Shown: positions 4,073-26,975 of the stretch, one piece after another | Position numbering within the stretch: position 1 is the stretch's first letter | How the letters are laid out: every line of letters starts with the position of its first letter | Position numbers and translations under genes: made by a program | Assembly: GCA_031082005.1 (NCBI GenBank) | Contig: JAVHLR010000001.1 | Coordinates: forward strand, 873,251 to 937,250 | Direction: 5' to 3' | DNA length: 64,000 bases | Origin: Patescibacteria group bacterium | GTDB taxonomy: Bacteria > Patescibacteriota > Patescibacteriia > 2-12-FULL-60-25 | Notes under the pieces: generated by a model | The model's database searches: none | What the model was told of the DNA's origin: nothing | What the model saw: the letters and a program-made list of their open reading frames with translations, nothing else

Positions 4073-5461
4073 TCACTTTACCAGATCCAGACAAGCCTGC
4101 GCGACGCGAAGATAGGAGTTCCCGTCCAAAGGACCGCACATCGTCTCACGCAGCGTCCGTCGACCCGCAGCACGGTAAGACGGCTCGTCAACCGATCGGA
4201 TCATCGCTTTCTTCAGCTCTTCCGGATCATGCACTATCTCGACGGCATCGCTCGCGACGACCGGCAGATAATGTTCCATCTTATACAGATTCGACGTCGA
4301 ATCGGTACCGTCCGGTCGGATGAAGGAACCGAAAGATACATTGATGGTCGGCTTATCCAAACAAGCAGCGTCTAACGACAAAGTCGACGCATAACATATT
4401 ACTGCGTCCGCATACTTAAGTTCGCACGCCAATTTAACCATGTCATCCTTGGCCGGATCCCAGTAATCATAAAAGAAGCTGCTCCAACGATATTCGTCGT
4501 CGACGAAAACTCCCGGCAGACCCTTGAACCGCTTATACCTTTCCTTCTGCACATCGCTGAAATGCGGCCGCAGGATGAAAGACACCGGAAACGGAAACTC
4601 GCCGCGATTGCGCATCTCCAGCAACCGTTCGATCACCAAATCGTCTTGCGGAGTCCAGTGGCCCTCCGAACCGAAGAAAAACAGTCGCGTCCCGGGATCA
4701 AGACCGAGTTTGCCGAAAAACTCGTCACGCGTCGGCAAGCCTTGCTGATGAACATAAATATCGAACTGCGGGAAACCCGTCAGCTTAATGTTCGCCTGAT
4801 CGAACCTTTGGACCTGTTGTGACGCTTCAGCCATCAATTTATTCTGCACCAAAAACATTTCCGGGATGACCCTGACCAACTGGCGCTGCAGATTGTCCCA
4901 CCCTTTTTGCATGGTGACAACCTTGGCTTCATGCCTACGGGCGGCCTTGATGATACACGTGTCAAAATTCGAGATGATGGAGCCGGCAAAAACTACCGCT
5001 GGTTTATGGCGCGCGAACAAATCATCGTATTTTCTTATCGGAAAAAGCCTGACATCCCAGTTACGCGCGATCTTCTTGAGCGCGTCGAACCTGGACAAAA
5101 AACCGAACAGCCTCCGATGGATGGGGTACCACCATGCCGGCACGGGCTTGACCTTGGCGCTGCCTTCCCGCGCCAACAAATCCGTGGACTCGGTATAGAC
5201 CAGGTTATTCACGACGGGTTTCCACAAACGTCTGACCCACCTTGATTCGGAAATCTCTTCGATCTCTTCGATGACGATGCGCGGATGATTGAATTCTTCA
5301 CGCAGATATTCCGGCACCCCGCCCTCACGTCGAGGAAAAAGAATCAACACCATGATGCGCGGATCCTTCAACAGTTCCTCAAGCACGCCGGTGCGCAGGA
5401 TGTTCCTGCACACCAATCCTCGACTGACGGCAAATGCGATAGTTATCATTTCTTGTGGCAT
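4073..5461 (-). CDS. GT-B-fold-like surface glycan protein (paralogue of 29342-30733)
   Basis: This 462-residue soluble protein has no family I can name with certainty. It is clearly paralogous to the product of 29342-30733: both start with SRGxxxRNILxTG, share a WDN motif (QKGWDNLQ here, VKSWDNMS there), then TGFPQFDIY or TGVPQFDIY, RDEFFGKLGLDP or RDEFLDTLGLEP, and FFGSEGHWTP or IFGSEGKVTP, and a C-terminal ASTLSLDAACLDKPTINVSF-like segment. The last part resembles the nucleotide-binding half of GT-B glycosyltransferases and CDP-glycerol glycerophosphotransferase-like enzymes. A glycosyl or polyol-phosphate transferase role in the surface glycan is inference. It is separated by one base from the methyltransferase gene upstream. 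Confidence 0.65.
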   Translation of the reverse strand: MPQEMITIAFAVSRGLVCRNILRTGVLEELLKDPRIMVLILFPRREGGVPEYLREEFNHPRIVIEEIEEISESRWVRRLWKPVVNNLVYTESTDLLAREGSAKVKPVPAWWYPIHRRLFGFLSRFDALKKIARNWDVRLFPIRKYDDLFARHKPAVVFAGSIISNFDTCIIKAARRHEAKVVTMQKGWDNLQRQLVRVIPEMFLVQNKLMAEASQQVQRFDQANIKLTGFPQFDIYVHQQGLPTRDEFFGKLGLDPGTRLFFFGSEGHWTPQDDLVIERLLEMRNRGEFPFPVSFILRPHFSDVQKERYKRFKGLPGVFVDDEYRWSSFFYDYWDPAKDDMVKLACELKYADAVICYASTLSLDAACLDKPTINVSFGSFIRPDGTDSTSNLYKMEHYLPVVASDAVEIVHDPEELKKAMIRSVDEPSYRAAGRRTLRETMCGPLDGNSYLRVAQACLDLVK

Positions 5462-5462
5462 A

Positions 5463-6422
5463 TCAGTGCACTATCTTCTTCAGGACGAGCTTTATTTTTT
5501 TTGGGATCATTGGTTTGAGCCTATCCCGCACAAAAAGCCTTAATGACTGCTTTAGATGGCCGCGCTTCACCAGACTTACGACCTTGTCGTAGGGCACGCT
5601 TGTCTTGATCGCAGCTTCCCAGCTCGTTGCCTGTGCCGCTGTCGAGCCGAAAGGCATCGCAACCACAGTCAACGGTTGATCGAAGGGCCCGTGCGCTACG
5701 ACCTTAAAACCATTGCGCCGCAAAAACAAGAATAGGCTGAAGGGCGAAAAATATTGGACATGCGGAAAACGGAAATACATGTTCCGCGGGACCGTCAGCG
5801 CACAGATATTCGGTACGCCGATATACACTGCACCATCCTCGGCACACAGCTTCCGCAGCGCGTCCCCCACCTCATCAGGCTGCAGAAAATGTTCAAGCAC
5901 GTGGTGCATGATGATCAGATCGAATTTCCCGTCTGAAAGGCGGGCGATATGTTCACTCAACACCCCAGGCAACAATTCAAGTCCAAAAACCTCATGCGCC
6001 ACTTTTTGCCCGATGGGATCAGGTTCGATACCCACGACCTCCTGCGCCTGATAGTCATCCCTTAATGCCGCCAAGACATTGCCGTAACCAGCGCCGATCT
6101 CTAAGACCCTCATACCAGGACGGATGTACGGCGTGATGAATTTCAGCAGCCTCGCCGTCTTCGCTTTGTTGCTGTCCGCTAAGGCGACCAGACCCTCACG
6201 ATCGTCGATCTTGTTGAACTCAAGGCTGAATCCGCTGCGGTAGAATTCATCGTACGTCTCTTGCCTGGCTCGCGGATTCAGATACACGTGGCTGCATCGT
6301 CTGCAGATGACGCTGCGCAATTTTTTGCCCGCAGACGACCTCTCATCCAATACCAAGCCGTCATCACTCTTGCAGACTGGGCAACGCACCGGTTCTAGCG
6401 TTCCGTTATCGTTGTTTTCCAT
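5463..6422 (-). CDS. Class I SAM methyltransferase with N-terminal zinc finger
   Basis: The 319-residue protein has an N-terminal rubredoxin-like zinc site, CPVC (C14, C17) paired with CRRC (C40, C43). A Rossmann methyltransferase domain follows with the SAM-binding motif VLEIGAGYGN (106-115), the acidic GIEPD at strand 2, and MHHVLEHF. The C-terminal segment FPHVQYFSPFSLFLFLRRNGF is shared with its neighbours (only part of it is needed to recognise them). It is one of four zinc-finger methyltransferases in the window and the third of a tandem trio in transcription order. The family includes sugar C- and O-methyltransferases, so methylation of a nucleotide sugar or glycan is likely; the acceptor is unknown. 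Confidence 0.85.
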   Translation of the reverse strand: MENNDNGTLEPVRCPVCKSDDGLVLDERSSAGKKLRSVICRRCSHVYLNPRARQETYDEFYRSGFSLEFNKIDDREGLVALADSNKAKTARLLKFITPYIRPGMRVLEIGAGYGNVLAALRDDYQAQEVVGIEPDPIGQKVAHEVFGLELLPGVLSEHIARLSDGKFDLIIMHHVLEHFLQPDEVGDALRKLCAEDGAVYIGVPNICALTVPRNMYFRFPHVQYFSPFSLFLFLRRNGFKVVAHGPFDQPLTVVAMPFGSTAAQATSWEAAIKTSVPYDKVVSLVKRGHLKQSLRLFVRDRLKPMIPKKIKLVLKKIVH

Positions 6423-6423: not shown

Positions 6424-7392
6424 TCAAAAAGAATCGCCGATCTTACGGATCAGCCGTCTGACTTTGAGGCTTAAAGGCTGGATAAATCGTCCAGGCACGA
6501 CCCTCTCCACCGCTCCTTTTACGCCACGCAACAGGCCATACACCAGCTTCGCCTTCCGAATCACCCGCACCACATCACTTGGCTCGCTCCCGACGGAAAA
6601 AGCACTGGCCTTGACCATATTCTCCGGCTCTTCGAACCTCGTAGCTACGGCCTCCAAGCCGCTCCGCGGAGGCCTCAACCGTGGGTTCAGGCTGATTGTC
6701 TTCAGGCCAGACAGATTCAAAGCATGATTCAAGCTCCAGGGCGAATAACTGACGACGTGCGGATATTGGAAAAACGCCTCGACCGGCTCCTGCAATTCGG
6801 TCACGTTGGGCACGACGATATAAAATTTCCCGCCAGGCGATAATTTTTGCGTCAGCCTCTTCAAAGCCGCGACCGGTTCGCTGATATGTTCCAACACGTG
6901 GTGCATGATGATCATGTCGAATTTACGCCCGTCGGCTTGCGACAAGTAATCGTCCAACAACCCATGGAACACCTCGATCCCATATTCCTCCGCCGCGAAT
7001 TTCCCCGAGACCTCTGACGGCTCGACTCCAAAAACCTGCGCACCGCACTCGTCTTTGATCCTTTTCAAAAAAAATCCGTATCCGCAGCCGATCTCCAAGA
7101 CCTTAGAATCCGCAGACAGAAATCTTTTTATGCTATCGACTGGATATTTCTCCAGACTCTTCTTGTTTTTCGCCCTCTCCCTCGCTTCGTCGACAGACGC
7201 AATATGGTGACGCTCCTGGATGAATTGTTTGTGATAATAACTATCCAAATCCTCTTTCGTCGGCACGGGATCTATATAGACCAAACCGCAGCGACGACAT
7301 ACGACATTGACCAAATCCTCCACATAATCGGCTTTTGTCGCGACTATCTGGGCATCATCCGAGCTGCACAGTGGGCATCTGGTCCTTTGCAT
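6424..7392 (-). CDS. Class I SAM methyltransferase with N-terminal zinc finger
   Basis: Second member of the tandem trio, 322 residues. The zinc ligands are CPLC (C6, C9) and CRRC (C32, C35). The SAM motif is KVLEIGCGYGFF (97-108), followed by FGVEPSE, MIIMHHVLEHI and the YPHVVSYSPWSLNHAL segment typical of this family. It lies one base from the next gene, so the trio is co-transcribed. The pairs differ enough in sequence to suggest three separate methylation steps rather than a recent duplication. Confidence 0.85.
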   Translation of the reverse strand: MQRTRCPLCSSDDAQIVATKADYVEDLVNVVCRRCGLVYIDPVPTKEDLDSYYHKQFIQERHHIASVDEARERAKNKKSLEKYPVDSIKRFLSADSKVLEIGCGYGFFLKRIKDECGAQVFGVEPSEVSGKFAAEEYGIEVFHGLLDDYLSQADGRKFDMIIMHHVLEHISEPVAALKRLTQKLSPGGKFYIVVPNVTELQEPVEAFFQYPHVVSYSPWSLNHALNLSGLKTISLNPRLRPPRSGLEAVATRFEEPENMVKASAFSVGSEPSDVVRVIRKAKLVYGLLRGVKGAVERVVPGRFIQPLSLKVRRLIRKIGDSF

Positions 7393-7394: not shown

Positions 7395-8336
7395 TTAACT
7401 CGCTTTCCTTCTCCCTCCCAAACCCAACGGAAATAAACTCTTTATCTTTCGAAGCGCCCTAAACATGTAATGTCTACGATCGTGTCTTTTTATGTAACTA
7501 AACATTTTCTCGGAATCAGAACCTTCCAAGAATTCATTGAATGGCACCGCTTCAAATGGCGCCTCCGCCCTCGTCGCAGCTATCTGCAACTGCATGGCAT
7601 CATCAAAACCCCACTTTACTATCTTCAAGCCGTGGCTGTTCAACAGATGATGGATAGACCAAGGGGTATATGTGAACAGATGCCCGTATTCAAGAGAATG
7701 AGCAAGTTCTCGAGATGCGCGCATCCTGGCACCGTTCGGGAATGCGAGATACAGGGCGCCTTCACTCGTCAGTAGGTTCTTGAGCTGCTCAATCCTTCTA
7801 TGCGGAGATTTCAGGTGCTCTAAGACGTGTCGCAGGATGACCAGATCATAGGTACCCTGATCACGCGAGCAGAAATCATCCAAGAACTCATGCCTAATAT
7901 CAGGAAGTTTAAAAAATTCCCGCGCGACCCGCACGTATAATTCGTCCGGCTCTACGCCCGTGACTTTACCGGTATAACGCTCATGCAAATCAGACAATAA
8001 CGCTCCGGTGCTGCAGCCAATATCCAAAATATCAGTGTCCTTCTTCAATAAAGGCTCAAGAAAACCGATCACACGCAATTCTTTCCGTCCCTCGTTCTTC
8101 TTCTTTCTCTCTGCGCTCAAGACGATTTCTTCATACCCAGCAGCAGTCTTGTCCTGCAAAAACCCACCCTGGTAATACTTTGACAGCTCCTCATCAGACG
8201 GCGCCGGGTCATTAAAAATCAGTCCGCAGCGCATGCATAAGACATTAATCACCTTCCTCGGCTCACCCTTTTTGAGTGCAGCAAGATGGCAAACCTCTCG
8301 GCGTTCCGCAGAACCACAAATCTCACAACGGCTCAT
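7395..8336 (-). CDS. Class I SAM methyltransferase with N-terminal zinc finger
   Basis: First of the tandem trio in transcription order, 313 residues. The zinc ligands are CEIC (C4, C7) and CMRC (C34, C37). The SAM-binding motif is DILDIGCSTGALL (102-114), followed by TGVEPDE and ILRHVLEHL. Its ATG overlaps the stop of the nucleotidyltransferase gene at 8333 by four bases. This translational coupling ties the methyltransferases to the cyclitol-type genes upstream and suggests that the methylated acceptor may be the product of that pathway. The last point is inference. Confidence 0.85.
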   Translation of the reverse strand: MSRCEICGSAERREVCHLAALKKGEPRKVINVLCMRCGLIFNDPAPSDEELSKYYQGGFLQDKTAAGYEEIVLSAERKKKNEGRKELRVIGFLEPLLKKDTDILDIGCSTGALLSDLHERYTGKVTGVEPDELYVRVAREFFKLPDIRHEFLDDFCSRDQGTYDLVILRHVLEHLKSPHRRIEQLKNLLTSEGALYLAFPNGARMRASRELAHSLEYGHLFTYTPWSIHHLLNSHGLKIVKWGFDDAMQLQIAATRAEAPFEAVPFNEFLEGSDSEKMFSYIKRHDRRHYMFRALRKIKSLFPLGLGGRRKAS

Positions 8337-9076
8337 AAATGATTATAAAAGGATGAATTATTGCTTACCTCCTCCGTCGCCCTTGCCAGCTCTTCCGGAA
8401 AATCTACCTCCAGCCACCTTGATCCGCTGATATCGGCGGTTTCGATGCGCTGTCCCATGTCCGCCATCCTCTGCCAAACATGTTCCAGGTTGGCGGAAGG
8501 ACCGAAAACATCCTCAGCCTCCCCGATAGTTTCCTTGACTAGACCGATTAATGACTTGGGGCAATAAGAGAATCCCACGTATCCACAATCGTACTCCTTC
8601 AAGGTCTTGGACAATTTCAACACCCGTCCGTCTCCCGGATCGAGAGAGACTTTCATGTCATCATCGCCCAAGACGCGATCCCGATCGATGAATATCGTCA
8701 ACGATCCGCCGAACTGTCGCTTAGCCCTTTCTGCTATGTCTTTCCTGAAGATATGGTCAGCGGTCATGACCACGAACGACCCATCAACCTTAGCCAAAGC
8801 GCGCTCCAGTGTCGTCGCACTTCCTTTTAGATATTCATCATTATGTATCAACTCGCATTCAGGATCGAATTGACGGACGACCGACGACAGAGCCTCGGCG
8901 CCATAACCTGTAACGACAATCCGTTTCTCGACACCCAAATCCCTCAAAAAAGCCAGACCGAAGCGTATCAATTCCACGCCCGCGACCTGCATCAAAGGTT
9001 TAGGTTTGTCCTGCGTCAGCTCACCCAATCTGACGCCTCTACCGGCTGCCATGATTATTCCAGTCAAGCCTTCCAT
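8333..9076 (-). CDS. Sugar/cyclitol-phosphate nucleotidyltransferase (probably CTP-dependent)
   Basis: The 247-residue single-domain nucleotidyltransferase shows the NTP-binding loop IIMAAGRGVRLGEL (7-20), DKPKPLMQVAG, the metal-binding Asp in VVMTADHIF (D107) and a second acidic site in SRWLEVDFPEEL near the C-terminus. The ADH form of the metal motif and the C-terminal SRWxxVD resemble CTP:inositol-1-phosphate and phosphocholine cytidylyltransferases more than RmlA/GalU. It overlaps the kinase gene at 9064 by 13 bases. With the kinase upstream it would activate a phosphorylated cyclitol or polyol, giving a CDP-linked donor for the transferase encoded at 12970. Base specificity (C versus U or G) is not proved by the sequence. 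Confidence 0.8.
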   Translation of the reverse strand: MEGLTGIIMAAGRGVRLGELTQDKPKPLMQVAGVELIRFGLAFLRDLGVEKRIVVTGYGAEALSSVVRQFDPECELIHNDEYLKGSATTLERALAKVDGSFVVMTADHIFRKDIAERAKRQFGGSLTIFIDRDRVLGDDDMKVSLDPGDGRVLKLSKTLKEYDCGYVGFSYCPKSLIGLVKETIGEAEDVFGPSANLEHVWQRMADMGQRIETADISGSRWLEVDFPEELARATEEVSNNSSFYNHL

Positions 9077-10008
9077 ATCTTTTCGATGGATTTCCTGCTC
9101 TTGGCCAGATCACGATACGCAGCCAAGAAGTGCCGATGGTTCTTCAATGCTTGCTCGGTAGAGAATCGCATGGGCCAATCTAAAGCTTCGCGCAACAACC
9201 TGAAACGGATCAAATCGTAAAAAAGCCGCTTCTCTATCTTCGTCAAAGGCTTCACCGATTCATATCCTGCCAGCAAAGACGATAGCGAACCCTTCACCAA
9301 CTCACCTCCTGGAAAACAGGTCCAGATGATCGTCGTCGCCAAATCGATCAGCAAAGCGTCATCATAGACATTATCGAAATCTATGAAACTGATGGTTCCA
9401 TCATTACCCATCACGATATTGTCCGGTTTAACGTCCTGATGCGTCACACCGGTGGGCAGTCTCTCCAGGTCACCCAGGGTGGCATACTCGGCCGACATGA
9501 AATAGATATCATCGACGCGGATACCGTCACGTAACGCCAAAATACGCTTCACGCCATTCTTCATTATCCACGCGACTTCCGGGAAGCTCCAACGCTCCCG
9601 ATCGACAGACGGAAGTTTCATGCCTTCGGTAGCCATATGCATCTGGCCCAACATCCTACCGACTTGATGCAGAATCTCGGCGTTCCACCTCTTCAGAGGC
9701 TTGCCCGGAATAAAATCCAGAAGGATCGTCGGCTTCCCTTGCCATACCGTCTGGCTCTTGCCGGCCAAGGTCTTACGGACCCTCGGACAACTGAAGCCGT
9801 GCTTCGCCAGACGATCGAGAACCGCTATCTCATACGCGACTTGTTGCGGGTTCCTTAAGGTGTAGCGCTTGAATACGAAATCGCCCTCCTCGGATTTAAT
9901 CCGATGGTTGATGTTGATCATGCCATCATCCAACCCTAAAAGCACCACGGGATGGATCCCGTACTCCTTCATCAGGAAATGCTTAAGGTCTTCAGACGCT
10001 CTCTTCAT
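9064..10008 (-). CDS. APH/choline-kinase-type small-molecule kinase
   Basis: This 314-residue protein belongs to the aminoglycoside phosphotransferase / choline kinase / homoserine kinase II superfamily. The phosphate-binding loop region is GMININHRI, the ATP-site Lys lies in FVFKRY (K48), the catalytic loop is THQDVKPDN (D192, N197) and the metal-binding Asp lies in ISFIDFDN (D210). The superfamily phosphorylates hydroxyls of small molecules. Its position between a sugar-phosphate cyclase gene and a nucleotidyltransferase gene, overlapping both (17 and 13 bases), suggests a cyclitol or sugar kinase. An antibiotic-resistance role is unlikely in this context. Confidence 0.85.
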   Translation of the reverse strand: MKRASEDLKHFLMKEYGIHPVVLLGLDDGMININHRIKSEEGDFVFKRYTLRNPQQVAYEIAVLDRLAKHGFSCPRVRKTLAGKSQTVWQGKPTILLDFIPGKPLKRWNAEILHQVGRMLGQMHMATEGMKLPSVDRERWSFPEVAWIMKNGVKRILALRDGIRVDDIYFMSAEYATLGDLERLPTGVTHQDVKPDNIVMGNDGTISFIDFDNVYDDALLIDLATTIIWTCFPGGELVKGSLSSLLAGYESVKPLTKIEKRLFYDLIRFRLLREALDWPMRFSTEQALKNHRHFLAAYRDLAKSRKSIEKIWKA

Positions 10009-11875
10009 AACTACGGTTGATCGCCTCCCTGATCACATCATCGCCGCATGAGACGAAATAGTGTCCCCGATCGTGCCACATCTCCCCGATCTTCCTGATC
10101 AGCACGAACTTCGCCTCGCCACCATGGAACTTCTTGTTGCACCGCAACAGGTTGATGATGTCATCTGCTTTGATGTCGCGCGGTATGGTCGTGGGCAAAG
10201 CGTAGCGCTTCATGAGATCCACTTGTTGTCGCAACGTCTCTTCGTCGCTTATGCCCATGAGGCAAGCCAATTCCGCCGAAGTCCGCATACCGACAGCTAC
10301 AGCCTCACCATGACCCAACTTGTATCCGGAAAGGTATTCGACTGCATGACCGATCTCATGCCCGTATTGGTAGACCAAAGCCACATTGTCCTCATAAAAA
10401 TCCTTCTCTAACGAATCGATCTTCAGCTTGATGCTCTGCCGAATTGCGTCTTCCAAGAATGGGATATCTTTAGGCTTTCCTTCATGCGCCGCGAAGAAAT
10501 CGAAATACTTCTTATCCTGTGCGAATGCTTGCTTCAGACACTCGCTTAACCCGTCACTCACATACCTGTCATCCAAAGTCGCCAATACATCCGGATCGAC
10601 TAATATCTTCAATGGCGCATAATAACTCCCGATCAGATTCTTTCCGCCCTCGCCGTTCACGCCCTGTTTGAAGCCGATGGCTGCATCACACTGCGCCAAG
10701 ACGGTCGTAGGGATGTGTATCGAACCGACACCGCGATAAAGCGTCGCAGCCAGAAAGCCGGCGATATCCTTGATCACTCCGCCGCCCAGGGACAAGATGA
10801 TGGATTTCTTATCGATGCCTTCACCCAAGATCTGGTTCGCCAAACGTAGATACACATCGACACTCTTTGACCACTCACCCGGGTCGACGACCAGCTTCGA
10901 CATGTTGTAGCCCAACTCCCGGAACTGTGCGAGGACCTTTTCGCCATACAGGCTATCGATGTTCTTGTCGACGATGAGACAATGCTTTGAATAGTAGGAT
11001 TCGTGCGGAATTATCTCGTATTCTTTTATCTTCTCGAGCAAGCCTCGCTCCACGAAGACATCGAAGGATACCGGCTTCTGGTAATTCAAAGTGATCGGCG
11101 AAGTCATGGCGCGTAGCTCGCGAGGCTCCGAACTCTGCTGGGAAGATAGCGAACGCAAGAATAACTCGGCCCTGATGAGCACAGCCGGGGTGTTCACGTC
11201 GAACCATCTGCTGCCGCCATAATCGACGGACCTTACTCTTCCTGTCTCGATATAATCCTTGAGCAAAGTCTCTAAAGAATTTGCAGCCGTACATGTCGCC
11301 GCCTGCTTGAAGAAATCCTGAGCGACTTCCTTGCCCAAATGAAGTATCCCGATCTCATATGCCGACGGCTTCGCCAGATCGACACCGGTCTTGACGATCT
11401 TGTCGTTCTCCAGCTCAACCCGGGCGGTCGCGCCTGAAGCCTCTCCGGACTTCTCATCCGTACCGATTAATACCCGAATCAAACCATCTCCCTCATCTCC
11501 ATGTTCGAATAATGCAAATGGATTCTTTTCAAAAATCAAATCGCACGGCGTGACGAAAAGCGGCCCTTCGGCCCTCCCCGACATCGCCGCGATCGAACCC
11601 AGCATGCTGTTGGATTCGGGATCTTGCTCTACATATTCGATTTCCGCCTTGACCGCAGGCTCACCCAACAAAGCCCGCTTGACCAGAGTGTCCCGAGTCG
11701 GCACGACGACGAATATCTTCTTGATACCGACATCCTGCAGATATTCTATCATCCAAAGAATCAGAGGCTTGCCTCCAAGCCTAACCAGTGGTTTGATGGT
11801 CTCAAAGCCCTCCAGCCTCTTGCCTGGTCCCCCTGCCAGGATCACAGCAGTTTCCGTCACTGTTTTTTCCGCCAT
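9992..11875 (-). CDS. Fused nucleotidyltransferase and DHQS-like sugar-phosphate cyclase
   Basis: A 627-residue two-domain protein. Residues 1-250 are a nucleotidyltransferase: ILAGGPGKRL (12-21), IKPLVRLGGKPL, FVTPCD with metal-ligand D112, and SRWFDVNTP (222-230). Residues 258-627 are a sugar-phosphate cyclase of the dehydroquinate-synthase superfamily: SLGGGVIKDIAGF (362-374), RGVGSIHIPTTVLAQ, GFKQGVN (401-407), GKNLIG, Glu445 in SECLKQ, and the metal-site histidines of YGHEIGHAVE (H506, H510) and LGHGEA (H522). The FKQGVN form has KQ where dehydroquinate synthase has KT; 2-deoxy-scyllo-inosose synthase also has KQ there. The frame continues 28 codons upstream, but the ATG at 11875 has an AAAGGAT site next to it and begins the NTP domain. 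This is the first gene of the operon and is divergent from the dehydrogenase at 11939. Confidence 0.85.
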   Translation of the reverse strand: MAEKTVTETAVILAGGPGKRLEGFETIKPLVRLGGKPLILWMIEYLQDVGIKKIFVVVPTRDTLVKRALLGEPAVKAEIEYVEQDPESNSMLGSIAAMSGRAEGPLFVTPCDLIFEKNPFALFEHGDEGDGLIRVLIGTDEKSGEASGATARVELENDKIVKTGVDLAKPSAYEIGILHLGKEVAQDFFKQAATCTAANSLETLLKDYIETGRVRSVDYGGSRWFDVNTPAVLIRAELFLRSLSSQQSSEPRELRAMTSPITLNYQKPVSFDVFVERGLLEKIKEYEIIPHESYYSKHCLIVDKNIDSLYGEKVLAQFRELGYNMSKLVVDPGEWSKSVDVYLRLANQILGEGIDKKSIILSLGGGVIKDIAGFLAATLYRGVGSIHIPTTVLAQCDAAIGFKQGVNGEGGKNLIGSYYAPLKILVDPDVLATLDDRYVSDGLSECLKQAFAQDKKYFDFFAAHEGKPKDIPFLEDAIRQSIKLKIDSLEKDFYEDNVALVYQYGHEIGHAVEYLSGYKLGHGEAVAVGMRTSAELACLMGISDEETLRQQVDLMKRYALPTTIPRDIKADDIINLLRCNKKFHGGEAKFVLIRKIGEMWHDRGHYFVSCGDDVIREAINRSYEESV

Positions 11876-11880
11876 ATCCT

Positions 11881-11909
11881 TTGACTTTCCTTGCTTATTT
11901 GAGTAATAT
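11881..11909 (+). promoter_or_regulatory. Candidate promoter of the dehydrogenase gene
   Basis: -35 TTGACT (11881-11886), a 17-base spacer and -10 TAATAT (11904-11909). The start codon is 29 bases further, and no Shine-Dalgarno sequence is visible before it. The site lies in the 63-base divergent gap between the cyclase fusion and the dehydrogenase, so both could be controlled together. Confidence 0.55.
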
Positions 11910-11938
11910 CCCTTCTTAAGAATCCAACAGACCTTAAC

Positions 11939-12973
11939 ATGAAAGCCGCACTCATTCAATCACCCGGAAGACTGGAAATCCAAGAAATTCCGGAGCCGAT
12001 TATCGGCGAATACGATGCCTTATGCACCGTGCTTTGCGCTTCCATCTGCAACGGCACGGATCATCACGCCATCCGCGGCGACGCCTTCTTCGATCTCCGT
12101 TTCCCGACCATCCTGGGCCACGAAGGCATCGGGCGCGTGGAAAAGATCGGATCTAAGGTCAAATACATAAAAATCGGCGACCTCATGACACGGGTAGTGA
12201 ACAAACTTCCTTCATCAAGCGGGATCTCCGTCAAACCCGGATGGGGCTCGTTCGCCGAACGCGGTATCGTCGTAGATTGGCAAGCCATGCGTGACGACGG
12301 AGTCCCCGAAGAAGTATGGCGTCCTTTCATGGTCAACCAGCAGTTGCCGCCCGACGCGGATCCCGTCAAATCTACGATGGTCATCACTTGGCGCGAGACC
12401 CTGGCCTTCCTCAACCGACTGGACTTGAAACGGAAGGAAAAAATCCTGATACTCGGGACCGGGGCGAATGCGTTAGCCTTCGTCGAGCACTCGCGCAACA
12501 AAGACGCTGATATCACCGTCTGCGGCAACCCTTCGCGCGAAAGGACATTCCTTCAGGGCGGCACGCACAACTTCGTCTCATATCAATCACCGGATGCGGA
12601 AAAAACGATCGGGTCCTTCGGGCCATTCGATACGATCCTTGATGCGATCGGGGATGCGGCCGGTTTGAACAGACGCTTGGTGCACCTGAAACCCGGAGGA
12701 AAAATCGCCGTATACGGACTGGACGGAGTCACAGACTACAGATTGGACGTTTTCCGCATCCCGCAGGGGTTCGCTTTCTTCAACGGCATCTATTACGAGG
12801 AAGGCACGACGCATGATGAGGTATTACAGTCGATAAAAGACGACCGGTTGTCAGCCGATCTGTACATCTCACCGGAGCACATCTATCCCTTCTCGCGGAT
12901 GAACGAAGCTCTTTCCGCCAGCCGAGACAGAAAAACGCTGAAAAGCGTCATCGATTTCAGGCTCGCCGACTAA
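11939..12973 (+). CDS. Zinc-dependent medium-chain alcohol/polyol dehydrogenase
   Basis: The 344-residue product is a medium-chain (MDR) dehydrogenase. The catalytic zinc ligands are Cys37 (CASICNGTD) and His61-Glu62 (GHEGIGRV), and the NAD(P) site is ILGTGANALAF near residue 175. The four-cysteine structural zinc loop is replaced by a cysteine-free segment (about residues 86-102). Relatives include sorbitol, threonine and 2-deoxy-scyllo-inosamine dehydrogenases. Divergent by 63 bases from the sugar-phosphate cyclase fusion and overlapping the CDP-alcohol transferase gene tail-to-tail by four bases, it fits a step reducing or oxidising a cyclitol. The direction of the reaction and the cofactor are not visible. 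Confidence 0.85.
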   Translation: MKAALIQSPGRLEIQEIPEPIIGEYDALCTVLCASICNGTDHHAIRGDAFFDLRFPTILGHEGIGRVEKIGSKVKYIKIGDLMTRVVNKLPSSSGISVKPGWGSFAERGIVVDWQAMRDDGVPEEVWRPFMVNQQLPPDADPVKSTMVITWRETLAFLNRLDLKRKEKILILGTGANALAFVEHSRNKDADITVCGNPSRERTFLQGGTHNFVSYQSPDAEKTIGSFGPFDTILDAIGDAAGLNRRLVHLKPGGKIAVYGLDGVTDYRLDVFRIPQGFAFFNGIYYEEGTTHDEVLQSIKDDRLSADLYISPEHIYPFSRMNEALSASRDRKTLKSVIDFRLAD

Positions 12974-13740
12974 TCCGCGGCCTGTCCCTCTCCTGGCATC
13001 TTTTTTATCTGTCTCAATTGTCTCCAAAAGACCAAAACCCACAATACAAAATAACCAACTCCGTAGAACGCCACATACCAATGGACCTTGTCGAAGATTG
13101 CAGCAAGCAGAAGCGGCAATATGACTCCGTTGGAAGAAAATATATTGCGCTTCAACCAAGAGATAAAACGTCTCGCGGAGGATCTTTGCGTCAACGACTG
13201 CCGGGAAGCGACCCTTTCTTCATCGCTTACTCCTCGCGGATGGAGCAGCTGCCAATGCCGGATTTCAGCCAGACGCGTCAGCAGCTTACCGACGGACGCT
13301 GCGAAAGCAACGACCATAGGCCAGAGTTCACCGACGAAAACCGAAGCCGCCAAGCCTAAAGGCAAAAACATCAGACCATACTGGATGTCGTGGCTGATAG
13401 GTTCGGCGTATGTACCGCCGACGATACTGCGGATTCGTCTGAATCTCGCGACCTCACCGTCACAGCCATCAAGCACCGTGGCAAAAAACACCAGACAAGC
13501 GCCCAGTATCGACAACTCACGCGACTGGAACAAGAACAGCCCTACCCCCAAAAAGAAAACCAAGACTGAAAGCGCGGTTATCTGGTTTGGGGTTATTGAG
13601 GTGTAAAGAAAAAGTTTGGTGAAATAAATCGAAAAAAAACGCGCTTTTTTACCCGTAAAAGTCTCTCTTTCAGGCGCCGGCGCAGTTGCCTGACAGCGAG
13701 CCCGCAATTCCTTTATGCTGATTCCTTTTGCGCTTTCCAT
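12970..13740 (-). CDS. CDP-alcohol phosphatidyltransferase family membrane protein with an altered active-site motif
   Basis: The 256-residue protein has several membrane segments (about 50-72, 77-90, 118-150 and two near residues 205-235). It carries the CDP-alcohol phosphotransferase signature DGCDGEVAR (91-99), with the first two Asp, Gly, Ala and Arg intact. In the usual motif, eight residues after the Arg come Gly, then Asp three and seven residues further. Here the segment is GGTYAEPISHD (108-118): the two later Asp positions are Glu113 and His117, followed by Asp118. The family moves the phospho-alcohol part of a CDP-activated compound to an alcohol. Here a CDP-cyclitol donor and a lipid or glycan acceptor are likely from the neighbouring genes. 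The altered acid pair could change chemistry or substrate. Confidence 0.82.
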   Translation of the reverse strand: MESAKGISIKELRARCQATAPAPERETFTGKKARFFSIYFTKLFLYTSITPNQITALSVLVFFLGVGLFLFQSRELSILGACLVFFATVLDGCDGEVARFRRIRSIVGGTYAEPISHDIQYGLMFLPLGLAASVFVGELWPMVVAFAASVGKLLTRLAEIRHWQLLHPRGVSDEERVASRQSLTQRSSARRFISWLKRNIFSSNGVILPLLLAAIFDKVHWYVAFYGVGYFVLWVLVFWRQLRQIKKMPGEGQAAD

Positions 13741-17674: not shown

Positions 17675-19516
17675 TCAAAAATACATTTTATACCATCGCG
17701 CCAGATTAATCAGCTGCCAGTAGAAAAATGAGTTATTGTCCTTATCGTTCGCGATAAAGCGCCGGAAACTGTCTTGTGCCTTCTCCGCATCGACCATCGG
17801 CAATTCTTTTAATGCCGACGATGACAATTCACGCAGCACATCATCCTTCAGCCGCGTCTTGAACCACGTCGTCTGCGGTGACGACTGCGGACGTTTCTGC
17901 CGCGTACGCAGTTCCTCCGGCACGACGCCACGCATCGCCTCACGCAACATGAACTTGCTTTTACCGCCTCGTATCTTCCATCGATCCTGGAGACTGAAGG
18001 CGAACTCGACGATACGATGATCCAAGTATGGCACGCGCAACTCCAAACCGTGCGCCATCGAGATATGATCGTTGAAACGCAACACTCGCGGCAATTTGGT
18101 ATAGATCGTGTCACGATACAAAGCATTCCTTAGCTCGTCCTCAAAAGGTCGCTCGAATTCAGGTCGAGGGTATTGATTCGCCTTTTCTACCCAACCATCT
18201 TTTAGGCAATCGAACCGTAAAAACTTCGTCCCGTCCTGAAACGCAGATTTGCCGGCGTCGCGCCACGTCCGTCCGAATGCCATCGCCGATTGCATAAGAT
18301 GGAGCGGATTATTGTCTTGAGCGGCACGTCCGATCTCCGCTCCTATCTCACCCACTCTCCCCTGCCTTACGAGGTCGCGGTAATAAGGTCCATAGAAATA
18401 CCTATAGCCTGCCAGAATCTCATCTACACCTTGCCCTTCCAAGACGACGATGACTCCGTTTTTCCGATGGGTCGACATCAAATCGTAATAACCCATGGTC
18501 GCCACTCCGCCGAATGGCTGATCCAGAGCGGCTACCGTCTGGTCTATGGTGCGATTAAAAATCCCTGGTTCGATGGCGGTCCGATGGAACGGCACGCCAC
18601 GCTCTTGCGCCAAGTGCATAATGTCTTCCGTCTCATCATACGCTTTTTCCTCAAAACCCATCGAAAAGATATTCAAGGATTTCAGGTCCATTGTCCGGTT
18701 CAACTCAAAAAACAGGCTCAATGAGTCGATACCGCTCGACAAGTTGATGCCCACCGGGACATCGCTACGCAGATGCAAGCGCAGACTCTGGTCCAACAAA
18801 GCGCGGAAACCATCCACCAGCTCATCATCCGAAAGCGACATCATGGTCTCGACATGCTCCGGCAGATACCACCAGCGTTTGATTTCAGGTTGGTCATCCC
18901 GGAACCTCAACAGATGCCCGCCCCGCAAAACTTTGACACCGCTGAAGAACGTCTCTTCCGAATGATCGTAATAACCTTGTAGGAGATAATGCGAAATAAT
19001 TTTCTCGTTCGGTTCGACTTTGATCCCCGCCGCCAACAAAGCTTTTATCTCTGAAGCGAAAAATAACTTGCCGTCCTGCAAAGCATAAAACAACGGCTTG
19101 ATGCCCAGCCTATCCCGCACGACCGTAACCGCACCTGTACGCTTATCAGTTATCGCGAAGGCGAACATGCCGAGCATCCGATCAAGACATGTCTCACCCC
19201 ATCTTTCCCAAGCGGCCAATATCACCTCCGTATCGGTCTGGGATGAGAATGGATAACCCGTCAATTCCTCACGCAGCTCTTTATAGTTGTAGATCTCTCC
19301 GTTGAACGTGATCGCAAAACGTCCGTCATACGACACCATCGGCTGTTTCCCGGCATCCGACAGGTCGATGATGGACAAGCGACGATGTGCCATTGTCCCG
19401 TTCGACAATTCCAATAATCCGTCGCCATCAGGACCGCGATGCGCCAGCGCATCGATCATGCGCTTGACGACGGCCGAGTCAGCACCTCGTCCGAATGACC
19501 CGGCGATTCCGCACAT
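17675..19516 (-). CDS. Asparagine synthase (glutamine-hydrolysing) homologue
   Basis: 613 residues. The N-terminal class II glutamine amidotransferase domain starts with MCGIAGS, so Cys2 becomes the N-terminal nucleophile, and has AHRRLSIIDLSD, FNGEIYNYKEL and SQTDTEVIL. The C-terminal domain is the ATP-pyrophosphatase synthetase. Its PP-loop reads SSGIDS (260-265) rather than the usual SGGIDS. Such enzymes make asparagine, but in surface-glycan loci they often amidate sugar carboxylates. Three copies in one locus favour the second role here. It lies two bases after the cytidylyltransferase gene. Confidence 0.9.
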   Translation of the reverse strand: MCGIAGSFGRGADSAVVKRMIDALAHRGPDGDGLLELSNGTMAHRRLSIIDLSDAGKQPMVSYDGRFAITFNGEIYNYKELREELTGYPFSSQTDTEVILAAWERWGETCLDRMLGMFAFAITDKRTGAVTVVRDRLGIKPLFYALQDGKLFFASEIKALLAAGIKVEPNEKIISHYLLQGYYDHSEETFFSGVKVLRGGHLLRFRDDQPEIKRWWYLPEHVETMMSLSDDELVDGFRALLDQSLRLHLRSDVPVGINLSSGIDSLSLFFELNRTMDLKSLNIFSMGFEEKAYDETEDIMHLAQERGVPFHRTAIEPGIFNRTIDQTVAALDQPFGGVATMGYYDLMSTHRKNGVIVVLEGQGVDEILAGYRYFYGPYYRDLVRQGRVGEIGAEIGRAAQDNNPLHLMQSAMAFGRTWRDAGKSAFQDGTKFLRFDCLKDGWVEKANQYPRPEFERPFEDELRNALYRDTIYTKLPRVLRFNDHISMAHGLELRVPYLDHRIVEFAFSLQDRWKIRGGKSKFMLREAMRGVVPEELRTRQKRPQSSPQTTWFKTRLKDDVLRELSSSALKELPMVDAEKAQDSFRRFIANDKDNNSFFYWQLINLARWYKMYF

Positions 19517-19518: not shown

Positions 19519-20226
19519 CTATTTGTTGAGTTTACGGCGCATCAAAAAATCCGCGATCTCGAAGTCGAGCGGGGTGTTGATGTCGACCGACACATCTTCC
19601 GGCATGACGTAAGCGCGGGAGTCCTTGCCGAACAAATCACTCTGAGCGATAGACGCGACCTTGGTCAGATACACGGCGCAATTACGTTTGAATACGCCGC
19701 CTAGAGCCTGACGCGAACTGCTCTGCGTGCCTTCATCTTCCATCCACGGTTTGATCACGTCGCCCTCCAGCACTTTCAATTTTTTGGCGGCGAAATCCGA
19801 CAGCTTCACCATACTCATGACCGAATCGCAATCCGTACGCCGCATCAGCTCGATGCACGCATCGATGTCTTCAGCCGTGCGGAACGGACTGGTCGGCTGC
19901 AGGATCATCAGCGCGTCATAAGTCTTGCCTTCGTTCTCCTTCATCCAAGCCAAAGCATGCTGCACTACCGCCATACTGGTCGCGGTATCCGTCGCCAATT
20001 CTTCCGGGCGCAGGAACGGCACGGGCGCACCGAAATGACGCGATACGTCTGCGATTTCCTGGTCGTCCGTCGAAACGAAAAAATCCGTCAACAGCTTGCT
20101 GCCCTTTGCTGCTTCGATAGTCCAAGCTATCAAAGGTTTCCCCGCTAAATCTTTTATATTCTTGCGCGGAATCCCCTTCGAGCCTCCACGTGCCGTTATC
20201 ACGGCCAATACTTTCAGATCGTTCAT
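19519..20226 (-). CDS. neuA: Acylneuraminate-type cytidylyltransferase (NeuA/LegF/PseF-like)
   Basis: The 235-residue enzyme has the signature VITARGGSKGIPRKNIKDL (9-27), STDDQEIADV near residue 52, and MILQPTSPFR. It activates a nonulosonic acid (sialic, legionaminic or related) as CMP-sugar. It is encoded with a 2-hydroxyacid dehydrogenase and a NeuC-like epimerase, and a NeuB-like synthase lies 5.6 kb upstream. The exact nonulosonate cannot be read from the sequence; legionaminic acid is as likely as sialic acid. Confidence 0.88.
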   Translation of the reverse strand: MNDLKVLAVITARGGSKGIPRKNIKDLAGKPLIAWTIEAAKGSKLLTDFFVSTDDQEIADVSRHFGAPVPFLRPEELATDTATSMAVVQHALAWMKENEGKTYDALMILQPTSPFRTAEDIDACIELMRRTDCDSVMSMVKLSDFAAKKLKVLEGDVIKPWMEDEGTQSSSRQALGGVFKRNCAVYLTKVASIAQSDLFGKDSRAYVMPEDVSVDINTPLDFEIADFLMRRKLNK

Positions 20227-20232
20227 AAAATT

Positions 20233-21183
20233 TTATCCCTTCAAGGCGTCAACCACGGCTCCAGCGATCGCGTCTTCCGTCATAGCCATCGACTCACGCG
20301 TCGCGCCGCCAATATGCGGAGTCAATATCAGATTATCGTGTTTCGCTGCATATTCCCGCAACGAATTATCCTCAAGGAACTTGCCGTCAGCCGCTTCATC
20401 CTCCAAGACATCCAATGCCGCACCCGCAAGATGCCCTGATTCCAGAGCTGCATACAGGGCAGTTTCGTCGATGACTTGCCCACGCGCCGTGTTTATAAGG
20501 CGTGCACCGGATTTCATCCAAGCGAATTCCTGCGCGCCCAACATATGCGTCGTCTCCGGCGTCAGATAGACATGGACCGAAACGATATCGGATCGCCCCA
20601 AAAAAGTCCGCAAATCCCCCACCATTTCGACACACGCCGGAACGTTGGTCTGATACGGATCATACGCGATGACCTTTGCCCCCATCTTGTCCAAAATCTC
20701 CGCCACGCGATAACCCAAACGACCGCAACCAAGCAGGCCGATCGTCGCACCGCTGATCTCGTGACCGATGAAAAGATTACGGTCCCAACCTCCGCTGACC
20801 ACATGGTTATGGGCGAACGGTATCCTGCGCAACAACGCCAACATGAGTCCGATCGTATGTTCGGATGTGGCGTAAATCTTTTCCGTGACCTCGCGCCAAC
20901 CTTTCAGGCTGATGATGCGTATTCCTCGCTTCTCCGCCTCGATTACATCGATATGGTTCAATCCGGTCGTCGGCGTAGCGATTATCTTCAGTCGCGGTGC
21001 TTTGTCCAAAAAAGCTGCGTCGATATAAAAAGCCAAACGGAGGACAATCACCTCCGCATCATTCAACTCCTTATCCAGCGCATCACCGTCCAAAACCGCA
21101 GAACTGACGCTGCCCAGTTGCGAATATAAAGCAATCGACTTCGGGCTGTAGTTAGTCGGTTCCAAGATGACGGTTTTTGCCAT
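20233..21183 (-). CDS. D-2-hydroxyacid dehydrogenase (phosphoglycerate dehydrogenase-like)
   Basis: 316 residues with the NAD-binding motif GLLGCGRLGYRV (149-160), the catalytic Arg in NTARGQVID (R234), the Glu in DVLEDE (E261) and the His in LTPHIGGATRESM (H290). Family members reduce 2-keto acids to D-2-hydroxy acids. No ACT domain is present, so it is not a full SerA. It sits between neuA- and neuC-like genes with gaps of six and one bases. A role in the nonulosonate branch, such as reducing an alpha-keto acid or making a lactyl-type substituent, is possible but unproved. Confidence 0.85.
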   Translation of the reverse strand: MAKTVILEPTNYSPKSIALYSQLGSVSSAVLDGDALDKELNDAEVIVLRLAFYIDAAFLDKAPRLKIIATPTTGLNHIDVIEAEKRGIRIISLKGWREVTEKIYATSEHTIGLMLALLRRIPFAHNHVVSGGWDRNLFIGHEISGATIGLLGCGRLGYRVAEILDKMGAKVIAYDPYQTNVPACVEMVGDLRTFLGRSDIVSVHVYLTPETTHMLGAQEFAWMKSGARLINTARGQVIDETALYAALESGHLAGAALDVLEDEAADGKFLEDNSLREYAAKHDNLILTPHIGGATRESMAMTEDAIAGAVVDALKG

Positions 21184-21184
21184 A

Positions 21185-22378
21185 TCAATATGTGATGCTT
21201 TTTTGGACTCGGAAGGTGGCTCGCGCCAGGACCTCCGCGATCCTCTCGCCCGCTTTCCCGTCGCCGAACACGGGGTCCGATTCGTAACGTCCGTTCGCCA
21301 GCTGTCTGTTCAAGGCATCGAGAATCGACTGCCTGTCGTGCGGGACCTCCATCATCACGTTCCTGCCGTGCTCGCGACCGTGCTGCCGTGACCCCACGAT
21401 GATCGCCGGCGTCCCCAGGTAACTACCCTCACGGATGAAGGACGAAGAGTTGCCGACGGCGCATGCCGCATTAGCCAAGATCCTGGCATAGGTTTCCGGC
21501 GGGAAATTCTTATAAAAACGTATCGGCACTTCAGGATTGAACTCGCGGAAGATGCGCAGTGCTTTTGAGATCTGGTCTGACCCGGCATCGATGTTAGGCC
21601 ACAAAGCGATCGCCGGCATGCCCGTCATCTTGATGGCTTCTACCGTCTCCATCACCTGATCATGACCCGAGCCATATTCTGTCGTGACCGGATGTTGCAT
21701 CATCAGGATATACGGCTTAGTCACGTCGATCTTCGGACCCACGCCTTGATAACCCAACATCTCGATCTCTTCAGGCCTGAAATTCCGTTCCATCTGCGCC
21801 ACGATGTCTATCGCTGGGCAACCAGTGACATGAATCGTGTCTGGAGATTCGCCCATCTTGATCAGTCGCTCACCGCTCGATTGCGTCGCCGGAAAGTGGA
21901 TATGCGCCAACTTGGTCACTGCATGGCGTACATGCTCATCGATCGAACCCGTCACTTCACCGCCCTGCGTGTGCGCCACCGGTATGTTCATGTATGACGC
22001 TGCGATCGCCGTGGCGATCGTCTCAAAACGATCGGCGATGGTCAACACGACATCCGGCTTCAATCGATTCAGGGCGTTAGTGATCTCCAAGATGCCCAAT
22101 CCGACGGACTTTGCCATGGTCAACGGAGTTTCACCTTCGACCGCCATGTACGCCTCATGATCGACCTCAAAGCCTTCAGCCCGCATCACATCCACGCCTT
22201 TACCATGGCGCTCCAACAACAAAGACGAACCGCCGATTATCTGCAGTTCCAAATCAGGATGTTTGCGGATCGCGTCCAAAGCGGTCTTGATGCGTCCATA
22301 ATTCGCCCGACCGATTATGACGACGCAAACCTTACGCTTCTGCCTCATCCCGGAGTCGATATTCCCTATGTCAGACAT
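21185..22378 (-). CDS. neuC: Hydrolysing UDP-N-acetylglucosamine 2-epimerase (NeuC/LegG-like)
   Basis: 397 residues with a GT-B-like epimerase fold: IIGRANYGRIK near the start, IADRFETIATAIAA, HTQGGEVTGSIDEHVRHA, MQHPVTTEYG, and AVGNSSSFIREGSYLG binding the UDP part. The NeuC-type enzyme releases a 2-epimerised N-acyl hexosamine for the NeuB step. The ATG at 22378 is supported by a GGAGG seven bases upstream. It is the first gene of a minus-strand unit running epimerase, hydroxyacid dehydrogenase, cytidylyltransferase and asparagine synthase. Confidence 0.9.
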   Translation of the reverse strand: MSDIGNIDSGMRQKRKVCVVIIGRANYGRIKTALDAIRKHPDLELQIIGGSSLLLERHGKGVDVMRAEGFEVDHEAYMAVEGETPLTMAKSVGLGILEITNALNRLKPDVVLTIADRFETIATAIAASYMNIPVAHTQGGEVTGSIDEHVRHAVTKLAHIHFPATQSSGERLIKMGESPDTIHVTGCPAIDIVAQMERNFRPEEIEMLGYQGVGPKIDVTKPYILMMQHPVTTEYGSGHDQVMETVEAIKMTGMPAIALWPNIDAGSDQISKALRIFREFNPEVPIRFYKNFPPETYARILANAACAVGNSSSFIREGSYLGTPAIIVGSRQHGREHGRNVMMEVPHDRQSILDALNRQLANGRYESDPVFGDGKAGERIAEVLARATFRVQKSITY

Positions 22379-22395
22379 GATATTTTAGCCTCCAT

Positions 22396-22424
22396 AAACT
22401 ACTTTTATTTCGCGGAAAAGTCAA
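22396..22424 (-). promoter_or_regulatory. Candidate promoter of the neuC-neuA unit
   Basis: Read on the minus strand: -35 TTGACT (22424-22419), a 17-base spacer, -10 TAGTTT (22401-22396). A GGAGG Shine-Dalgarno site follows, seven bases before the ATG at 22378. Confidence 0.5.
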
Positions 22425-22459
22425 TACAGAATCAGCCTCAACCGACCATGCAAACAGAA

Positions 22460-22482
22460 GCCCGCTCTGGAGCAGAGCGGGC
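22460..22482 (-). terminator. Intrinsic terminator after the 22507-23568 gene
   Basis: A nine-base-pair GC-rich stem (22460-22468 with 22474-22482, loop of five), followed in the minus direction by TTCTGTTT. It ends the single-gene unit at 22507. The same tail follows the terminator at 23648. Confidence 0.85.
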
Positions 22483-22506
22483 GGTCGTGACTGTCAGATG
22501 TAGGTT

Positions 22507-23568
22507 TCAGACCAACGAAAGGACGGAATCCGCGACCTCGTCGATCGGGATAGAGCGGAAGACATGTTCCGCGTTTCGCCGTATCACCGGCGCAGCGTCT
22601 CGTGCCAGGGCGATGAGGTCGCAGGGCATATTCAGCTCGACTGCTATCCCCAGCTTGATGCCGGGATACTTGTCATAGGCGACCTGTTCGCCCAACAGAC
22701 GGCGGGTCAGCGCTGTCGAGATGCTCACCGCTGCCCGTCCGTGTTTTGCGGCGTACAGCAGCGCTGTACTCGATCCGGAAACGGTGACGTCGGCCATCGC
22801 CGCCAAAGCGCGCGAATCGGTGGACGCGTCGAATCCGGTATACACGATACCCCGCGTGGTCTTCATGAAGAACTCCGCGACGACGCCCTCCCACAGCGCC
22901 CTGTTCTGCGGGATATCGAGGTACTTGGGATGGAATCTCGGGATGAACGCGTAGGGTTGGCCCGAAGCATCCAGGGAAAGGAGCGTCAACGCCAGGAGCT
23001 CCGTCGTGCCGTCGCCCTCTCCGGCGAACATGACCACTGTGCCGAATTTCGCACGCAAGAGTTCCATATGCGCCTTCATCACAGACGGGACTTGGAATGA
23101 GTTCAACGCCGCGTTCCCCATGATGATGATCTCCGTCTTCTGGAATCGCGGCAGCTCGCGCATGAGATTCTCGCCGTAGCTGTCGAGTGTGAAAGCCATA
23201 TCTGCGGAGCACGGCATGCGTCGCGACGTGCCCCACACATCCTCCATGATGACGAGAGGTATGCCGAGCTCGTTCGCCGCCTGACCGCACTTGGCCTCGA
23301 GGTTGATGGGCGAACCCATCGTGCTGATGACCAGCTCTGCGCCGAGTCTGGTCAGTTCAGCCTTCACATCGACGGCGTACGGCTCCCGCTGGAAATCGAA
23401 GCTCCCCACGAAATCCACCGTATACCCTGCAGCCCCCCATTGGGCCACAGAGACTCCTTCGGCCATGATGGATATTTCATTCCCTCGCCGTTTCAGTTCT
23501 TCGGCAAGCGGGAAAGATACCTCATAACCGCCTTTGTCCTTCGTGACGAACACTATCTTACGAGCCAT
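22507..23568 (-). CDS. GT-B-fold-like protein of unknown function
   Basis: 353 residues from the ATG at 23568, chosen because GGAGG lies seven bases upstream; an open frame extends 20 codons further but crosses the promoter region. The N-terminus (IVFVTKDKGGYEVSFPLAEE) and the C-terminal segment VSGSSTALLYAAKHGRAAVS look like the two halves of a GT-B fold, similar to MurG or UDP-GlcNAc epimerases. No family name can be given with confidence. A single-gene unit with its own promoter and terminator, it lies inside a block that splits the nonulosonate genes. A glycosyltransferase or nucleotide-sugar enzyme role is inference. Confidence 0.6.
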   Translation of the reverse strand: MARKIVFVTKDKGGYEVSFPLAEELKRRGNEISIMAEGVSVAQWGAAGYTVDFVGSFDFQREPYAVDVKAELTRLGAELVISTMGSPINLEAKCGQAANELGIPLVIMEDVWGTSRRMPCSADMAFTLDSYGENLMRELPRFQKTEIIIMGNAALNSFQVPSVMKAHMELLRAKFGTVVMFAGEGDGTTELLALTLLSLDASGQPYAFIPRFHPKYLDIPQNRALWEGVVAEFFMKTTRGIVYTGFDASTDSRALAAMADVTVSGSSTALLYAAKHGRAAVSISTALTRRLLGEQVAYDKYPGIKLGIAVELNMPCDLIALARDAAPVIRRNAEHVFRSIPIDEVADSVLSLV

Positions 23569-23599
23569 GTCCAGGCCTCCTTGGTCAAAGGGACCGCAT

Positions 23600-23631
23600 A
23601 ACGTACTTGATCTGACCGAACGTGTCAAGTA
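23600..23631 (-). promoter_or_regulatory. Promoter with inverted repeat before the 22507-23568 gene
   Basis: Read on the minus strand: -35 TTGACA (23628-23623), a 17-base spacer, -10 TACGTT (23605-23600). The heptamers TACTTGA (23604-23610) and TCAAGTA (23625-23631), centres 21 bases apart, are perfect inverted copies overlapping both boxes. This is a possible operator. Confidence 0.6.
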
Positions 23632-23647
23632 ATACCAAGCAAACAGA

Positions 23648-23679
23648 AATCGCCTGCCGGTGAGGACCGACAGGCGATT
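23648..23679 (-). terminator. Intrinsic terminator after the 23692-24795 methyltransferase gene
   Basis: A nine-base-pair stem (23648-23656 with 23671-23679) with a small inner CGGT/ACCG helix, followed in the minus direction by TTCTGTTTGC. It starts 13 bases after the stop codon. Confidence 0.85.
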
Positions 23680-23691
23680 GAAGAGGTGGGA

Positions 23692-24795: not shown

Positions 24796-24809
24796 GACCC
24801 AACTCCCTT

Positions 24810-25745: not shown

Positions 25746-25769
25746 TTTCCTCTCTCCTTGTTCAAGGCG

Positions 25770-25798
25770 TCTTACGCCATTCTGGCGTATTTGTCAAG
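25770..25798 (-). promoter_or_regulatory. Promoter with operator-like palindrome before the transporter gene
   Basis: Read on the minus strand: -35 TTGACA (25798-25793), a 17-base spacer, -10 TAAGAC (25775-25770). Inside the spacer, TACGCCA (25774-25780) and TGGCGTA (25784-25790) form a perfect seven-base inverted repeat with a three-base centre. A CCTTG/CAAGG hairpin (25757-25768) lies next to the Shine-Dalgarno region. Confidence 0.65.
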
Positions 25799-25834
25799 CG
25801 TATCTACCCGCTTTTTCTTCTAAAAAAATTTAAA

Positions 25835-26968: not shown

Positions 26969-26975
26969 CAACCCG

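Follow-up and report, generated by a model that had tools for sequence, protein, structure and literature searches.

What does a sugar-phosphate cyclase (SPC) do when it is fused to a nucleotidyltransferase (NTase) and encoded among surface-glycan genes in a member of the Patescibacteria? The question is raised by five genes at positions 8333-13740 of a 64,000-nt stretch of contig JAVHLR010000001.1 (assembly GCA_031082005.1, positions 873,251 to 937,250), hereafter the window. We consider it probable that these genes form one cassette within a surface-glycan locus, by which an inosose is made, reduced, phosphorylated and activated with CMP, and the cyclitol phosphate is then transferred to a surface acceptor. 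This interpretation is built on the gene families, the intact core catalytic residues of the cyclase and the kinase, the conservation of the set across two families of bacteria, and the absence of competing pathways from the host genome.

An earlier note on this DNA had read five enzyme families from this region, and the Pfam and NCBIfam profile searches by which window genes were assigned to families recovered each of them at the same place. The central gene (9992-11875, minus strand) encodes one NTase domain and the cyclase in a single protein (NTP_transf_3, E 2e-15; DHQ_synthase, E 4e-35; DHQS_C, E 2e-28). Its open reading frame (ORF) opens with TTG at 11959 and comprises 655 residues, with an NTase domain resembling CTP:inositol-1-phosphate cytidylyltransferase (IPCT) at the N-terminus (residues ~35-270) and the cyclase at the C-terminus (~300-655); the ATG at 11875, giving 627 aa, is the more likely start, since the homologue in a genome of the same genus (G003) opens at a nearly matching place. 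The minus strand also carries a small-molecule kinase of the APH/homoserine-kinase type (9064-10008, 314 aa; PF01636, E 2e-25), a second IPCT-like NTase (8333-9076, 247 aa; NTP_transf_3, PF12804, E 3e-13) and a CDP-alcohol phosphotransferase (PT), which is a membrane protein (12970-13740, 256 aa; CDP-OH_P_transf, PF01066, E 2e-7). The Zn-dependent medium-chain alcohol/polyol dehydrogenase (11939-12973, 344 aa; PF08240, E 8e-9) is encoded on the plus strand and diverges from the fusion gene. Judged by eye, the remaining window ORFs resemble a surface-glycan locus, with glycosyltransferases, a polyprenyl-phosphate sugar-phosphate transferase, a flippase-like protein and an O-antigen-ligase-like protein.

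Assignment of the cyclase domain

The cyclase domain matches PF01761 and PF24621, which places it in the SPC superfamily (DHQ_synthase fold, Glu/His/His ligands and NAD site). Its predicted structure, with a predicted local distance difference test (pLDDT) score mostly of 85-98, aligns with the top SPC structures at target-normalised TM-scores of 0.87-0.90; the NTase half of the model is too uncertain to read. Structures of 3-dehydroquinate synthase (DHQS) head the fold search, which does not separate DHQS from 2-deoxy-scyllo-inosose synthase (DOIS). The earlier note would have judged its own proposal refuted by a loss of active-site residues; E473, H534 and H550 (655-residue numbering), which we take to be the metal ligands, are retained in the alignment.

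The residues that distinguish SPC types are more informative. In DHQS, an arginine binds the carboxylate of 3-deoxy-D-arabino-heptulosonate 7-phosphate. In all aligned DHQS, including those from shikimate clusters of Patescibacteria, this Arg precedes the Asn in the motif LN-x-GH by four residues, whereas the position is Ala in the window clade and Gly in DOIS, and the Asn itself is replaced by Gln in the window clade and by Glu in DOIS. The GGK[TV] stretch of DHQS reads GFKQ or SLKQ in the window clade and S[IL]KQ in DOIS, and the GHT of DOIS reads GHE. The domain therefore has two residue features of DOIS, the KQ motif and a small residue at the Arg position, and has Gln in place of the third, the Glu at the Asn position. 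Three tree builds group the window clade with DOIS (support 99/98, 96/92 and 97/97). Among profiles, TIGR01357 (aroB) matches with E 3e-86 at a score under the curated cut-off, and TIGR04425 (AroB-related sugar phosphate phospholyase) scores 216-218 bits, below its 400-bit cut-off. The earlier note named no SPC type; the evidence points toward the DOIS branch, a placement that these sequence comparisons support but do not settle.

Another DOIS-clade cyclase, free of any NTase fusion, was observed in genome G163 (L087:9190-10299); its second active-site His is replaced (GHTTGK), and its neighbours resemble a small-molecule locus.

Nucleotidyltransferases, kinase, dehydrogenase and phosphotransferase

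Both NTases resemble IPCT, and their use of cytidine triphosphate (CTP) is presumed from this likeness. The second NTase has the NTP transferase fold with GxGxR..K and the metal-binding acidic residues, and its top solved relative is the IPCT 2xme (E 4e-15). For the fused NTase, a search with the fusion profile places 2xme and 4mnd among the three best NTase matches, behind 4jd0 (named only "nucleotidyl transferase"); its signature is slightly off, with IKP instead of PKP in the window and GRGQK in G429, a genome of another family of the same class. The choline-type enzyme LicC (1jyk) is a weaker match than IPCT for both.

The kinase retains the catalytic HxDxKPxN and IDFDN motifs and matches homoserine kinase 2ppq (E 3e-27), while the solved relatives of the dehydrogenase are mainly alcohol dehydrogenases. 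The PT scores above the PF01066 cut-off, and its best solved relative is AF2299 (4o6m, E 4e-14), followed by IPCT-DIPPS (4mnd). Its motif is DGCDGEVAR-x8-G-x4-E-x3-H; compared with the canonical Dx2DGx2ARx8Gx3Dx3D, the first half is intact, and the last two Asp give way to Glu, shifted by an insertion of one residue, and to His. This His is common to the PTs of the window and of the loci L084:14947-15702, L112:11938-12696 (genome G335) and L113:8952-9716 (genome G143).

Competing pathways in the host genome

The host genome, rated 100% complete, was searched for families belonging to competing pathways, all of which were detectable as controls in a set of 14 genomes (chorismate synthase in 14, AroB-like in 11, inositol-3-phosphate synthase (MIPS) in 5 and CTP_transf_1 in 13). 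The host genome yielded no chorismate synthase, no second AroB-like gene, no MIPS, and no CDP-diacylglycerol synthase of the CTP_transf_1 family (PF01148), the one family of such synthases that was searched. In the absence of chorismate synthase and of another AroB-like gene, the cyclase is therefore unlikely to serve the shikimate pathway and aromatic amino acids; likewise, without MIPS, any inositol phosphate would not come from the usual enzyme, making a classical inositol role unlikely, and CDP-diacylglycerol made by the PF01148 family is unlikely to feed the PT. Synthesis of phospholipids from CDP-diacylglycerol is accordingly disfavoured as the role of the PT. The role of a shikimate DHQS is rejected for the cyclase on the same absences, together with the Ala in place of Arg, the GFKQ stretch and the TIGR01357 score below cut-off.

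Conservation and analogous gene sets

Overlapping samples of Patescibacteria genomes (relatives, the class, the phylum, two orders and one further class, with labels reaching at least G872) contained the NTase-cyclase fusion in three genomes, namely the window's own, G003 and G429, and in no further genome among those searched. G003 has the five-gene set in identical order with 87-88% identity. In G429, five homologues are contiguous on one strand in the order dehydrogenase (44% identity), kinase (27%), PT (37%), fusion (37%) and second NTase (31%, measured against the NTase domain of an NTase-TylF fusion). The co-occurrence elsewhere by which the earlier note proposed to check its gene set is thus found in both genomes, side by side. 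Chance is a very unlikely explanation for a set kept through such divergence and reshuffling. The set is uncommon and is distributed without regard to family, other members of the genus and the family being without it; horizontal acquisition is therefore probable.

Searches beyond these genomes returned little. In a scan of contigs with weak peptide patterns derived from the cyclase, the public record of G003 was the sole match, and a scan of viral contigs gave none. A tblastn search of plasmids recovered DHQS, DOIS, sedoheptulose-7-phosphate (S7P) cyclases and EboD, which were used as references; none of the feature names annotated beneath the plasmid matches indicated an NTase fusion. In the open-licence literature, searches for SPC-NTase fusions and for a surface pathway with a CDP-cyclitol turned up no paper, which is weak evidence of novelty.

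When the PT alone was searched for in 362 genomes of the phylum, it was accompanied by two weaker relatives only, and both belong to comparable gene sets. Within 6 kb, G335 (L112:6833-12696) encodes an AroB-like cyclase, a short-chain dehydrogenase/reductase, a DUF4147/MOFRL protein of the glycerate-2-kinase type, an IPCT-like NTase and a CDP-alcohol PT. Its dehydrogenase and kinase come from families other than those of the window and are not homologous to them, and its cyclase forms a long branch outside the window cyclase group. These differences suggest repeated assembly of the same logic. The G143 locus (L113:4184-9716) comprises a phosphoenolpyruvate (PEP) mutase-NTase fusion, a thiamine-pyrophosphate-enzyme-like protein (by eye, a phosphonopyruvate decarboxylase), an iron-dependent alcohol dehydrogenase, a second NTase and a CDP-alcohol PT, and is a phosphonate-type locus with two NTases. 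The signature is partly gone from its fused NTase but largely kept in the cyclase-fused one.

Proposed pathway and alternative explanations

The order of the steps is proposed from the chemistry that each family performs. The cyclase would convert a hexose phosphate into a cyclic inosose ketone with loss of phosphate, and we lean slightly toward glucose-6-phosphate, as in DOIS, as its substrate. A deoxyinositol would then arise through reduction of the ketone by the Zn-dependent dehydrogenase, the APH-type kinase would add a phosphate back, and one of the two IPCT-like NTases would use CTP to form a CDP-cyclitol. Finally, the membrane PT would move the cyclitol phosphate onto a hydroxyl group, the presumed acceptor being the precursor of a surface glycan or lipid. 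The core of the earlier note, an SPC-derived cyclitol that is nucleotide-activated and that a CDP-alcohol PT passes on, gains support from the co-occurrence of the genes, the kept metal ligands, the IPCT-like NTases, and the absence of the end enzyme of the shikimate pathway, MIPS and the common CDP-diacylglycerol synthase.

Several observations weigh against this pathway. The Gln at the DHQS Asn position and the GHE motif mean that the product could differ from 2-deoxy-scyllo-inosose. Few references underlie the grouping with DOIS in the trees, and the approximately unbiased (AU) test rejects neither a grouping of the window clade with DHQS (p 0.087) nor its placement beside EboD and the S7P cyclases (p 0.23). 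Glu and His stand in for the last two canonical Asp of the PT, which leaves its activity uncertain; the kinase might phosphorylate some unrelated alcohol in the manner of LicA, and the second NTase finds no part in the scheme. Known DOIS pathways aminate the ketone; among the window ORFs no aminotransferase was noted by eye, no search aimed at one having been made.

Two other explanations keep the cyclase active and are each unlikely. The product might be a C7 cyclitol of the valiolone type made from S7P, which would make the cassette a surface-glycan cousin of the acarbose and validamycin routes. The enzyme types match those of C7-cyclitol pathways, and the AU result for S7P cyclases just given leaves room for this origin; however, in the aligned S7P cyclases the second active-site His, kept in the window clade (GHxxGHA), is lost (GHT-[FW]-SP) and there is no KQ motif, and the best trees put the window clade with DOIS. 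It is about as improbable that two separate routes are interleaved. In the first, the cyclase and dehydrogenase would make a cyclitol that is free or bound as a glycoside; in the second, another alcohol, of the choline, ethanolamine or amino-alcohol type, would be activated and transferred by the kinase, the second NTase and the PT in the manner of LicA and LicC. The presence of two NTases, the membership of the kinase in the APH/choline-kinase/homoserine-kinase superfamily, and the LicC matches would all fit such a division, yet both NTases are closer to IPCT than to LicC, the cyclase carries the other NTase as a fused domain, and all five genes stay together in G429. That the cyclase is a stray DHQS beside unrelated surface-glycan genes is strongly disfavoured and very improbable: despite the E-value of the aroB profile and the leading rank of DHQS in the fold search, the complete genome is without chorismate synthase, the DHQS arginine and KT/KV motif are replaced, and the five-gene set is conserved in G429.

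Comparison with known systems

DOIS-type cyclases are known from the biosynthesis of aminoglycoside antibiotics. The window cyclase shares with them the fold, metal ligands, KQ motif and loss of the DHQS arginine, and they are its nearest clade in the trees; it differs in the Gln for Glu, in GHE for GHT, and in its fusion to an NTase, and it lies in a surface-glycan rather than an antibiotic context, with no aminotransferase noted nearby.

IPCT-DIPPS is a CTP:inositol-1-phosphate cytidylyltransferase fused to a CDP-inositol phosphotransferase, and its inositol phosphate originates from MIPS. The window cassette resembles the archaeal IPCT-DIPPS (2xme, 4mnd) and AF2299 (4o6m) in its NTase and CDP-alcohol PT families and, probably, in its CDP-polyol chemistry. 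Unlike in IPCT-DIPPS, the NTase is fused to the cyclase and not to the PT, the last two Asp of the PT are Glu and His, and an SPC, a dehydrogenase and a kinase take the place of MIPS. Acarbose and validamycin C7-cyclitol pathways use similar types of cyclase, dehydrogenase, kinase and NTase, but end with a glycosyltransferase-like step and no CDP-alcohol PT, and their S7P cyclase is without the second active-site His.

Phosphonate tailoring (Pnt) loci offer a close precedent for the second NTase, to which the earlier note gave no role. Fusion of PEP mutase to a PF12804 NTase is common, and in some phosphonate clusters a separate NTase, encoded one or two genes from the fusion, is present as well (PMC6697681). 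The window cassette follows the same two-NTase plan, the NTase being fused to the first committed enzyme, with the SPC and kinase replacing PEP mutase and with no C-P bond chemistry; the phosphonate-type locus of G143 also carries a CDP-alcohol PT. EboD of the ebo operon is another non-DHQS SPC clade in a conserved gene set, the product of which is unknown (PMC5133447); it is separate from the window clade, and its partners are a TatD-like hydrolase, a UbiA-type prenyltransferase and EboE.

More tentatively, we propose that a new SPC subfamily with an attached cytidylyltransferase feeds an as yet undescribed CDP-(deoxy)inositol route to cyclitol phosphodiesters on surface glycans or lipids of Patescibacteria. 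The route would follow a two-NTase plan like that of phosphonate loci and would have arisen in several versions, among them a G429-type and a G335-type. If true, cyclitol chemistry would reach cell-surface decoration in ultra-small bacteria that have neither a shikimate nor an inositol pathway, genes that databases call AroB would gain a testable substrate-to-product prediction, and fusion of an NTase to the first committed enzyme would appear as a general plan.

Other genes of the window

Downstream of the second NTase gene, three class I S-adenosylmethionine-dependent methyltransferases with an N-terminal Cys-rich stretch are encoded on the minus strand (7395-8336, 6424-7392 and 5463-6422; PF13489, E 1e-20, 3e-19 and 5e-21, respectively). 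They are conserved in G003 only, and none adjoins the cassette in G429; their link to the cassette is tentative. Methylation of the product is hinted at by the TylF-type O-methyltransferase that is fused to the second NTase in G429.

Two related-looking putative glycosyltransferases are located at 4073-5461 and 29342-30769; for the first, the BFO_1060 family is a weak match and Pfam gives none. The surface-glycan locus also includes three asparagine-synthase-like (amidotransferase) genes (17675-19516, 36431-38278 and 44789-46672) and, judged by eye, a set resembling that for CMP-nonulosonic acid (19519-27004), with a CMP transferase (19519-20226), a NeuC-like epimerase (21185-22378) and a NeuB-like synthase (25835-27004).

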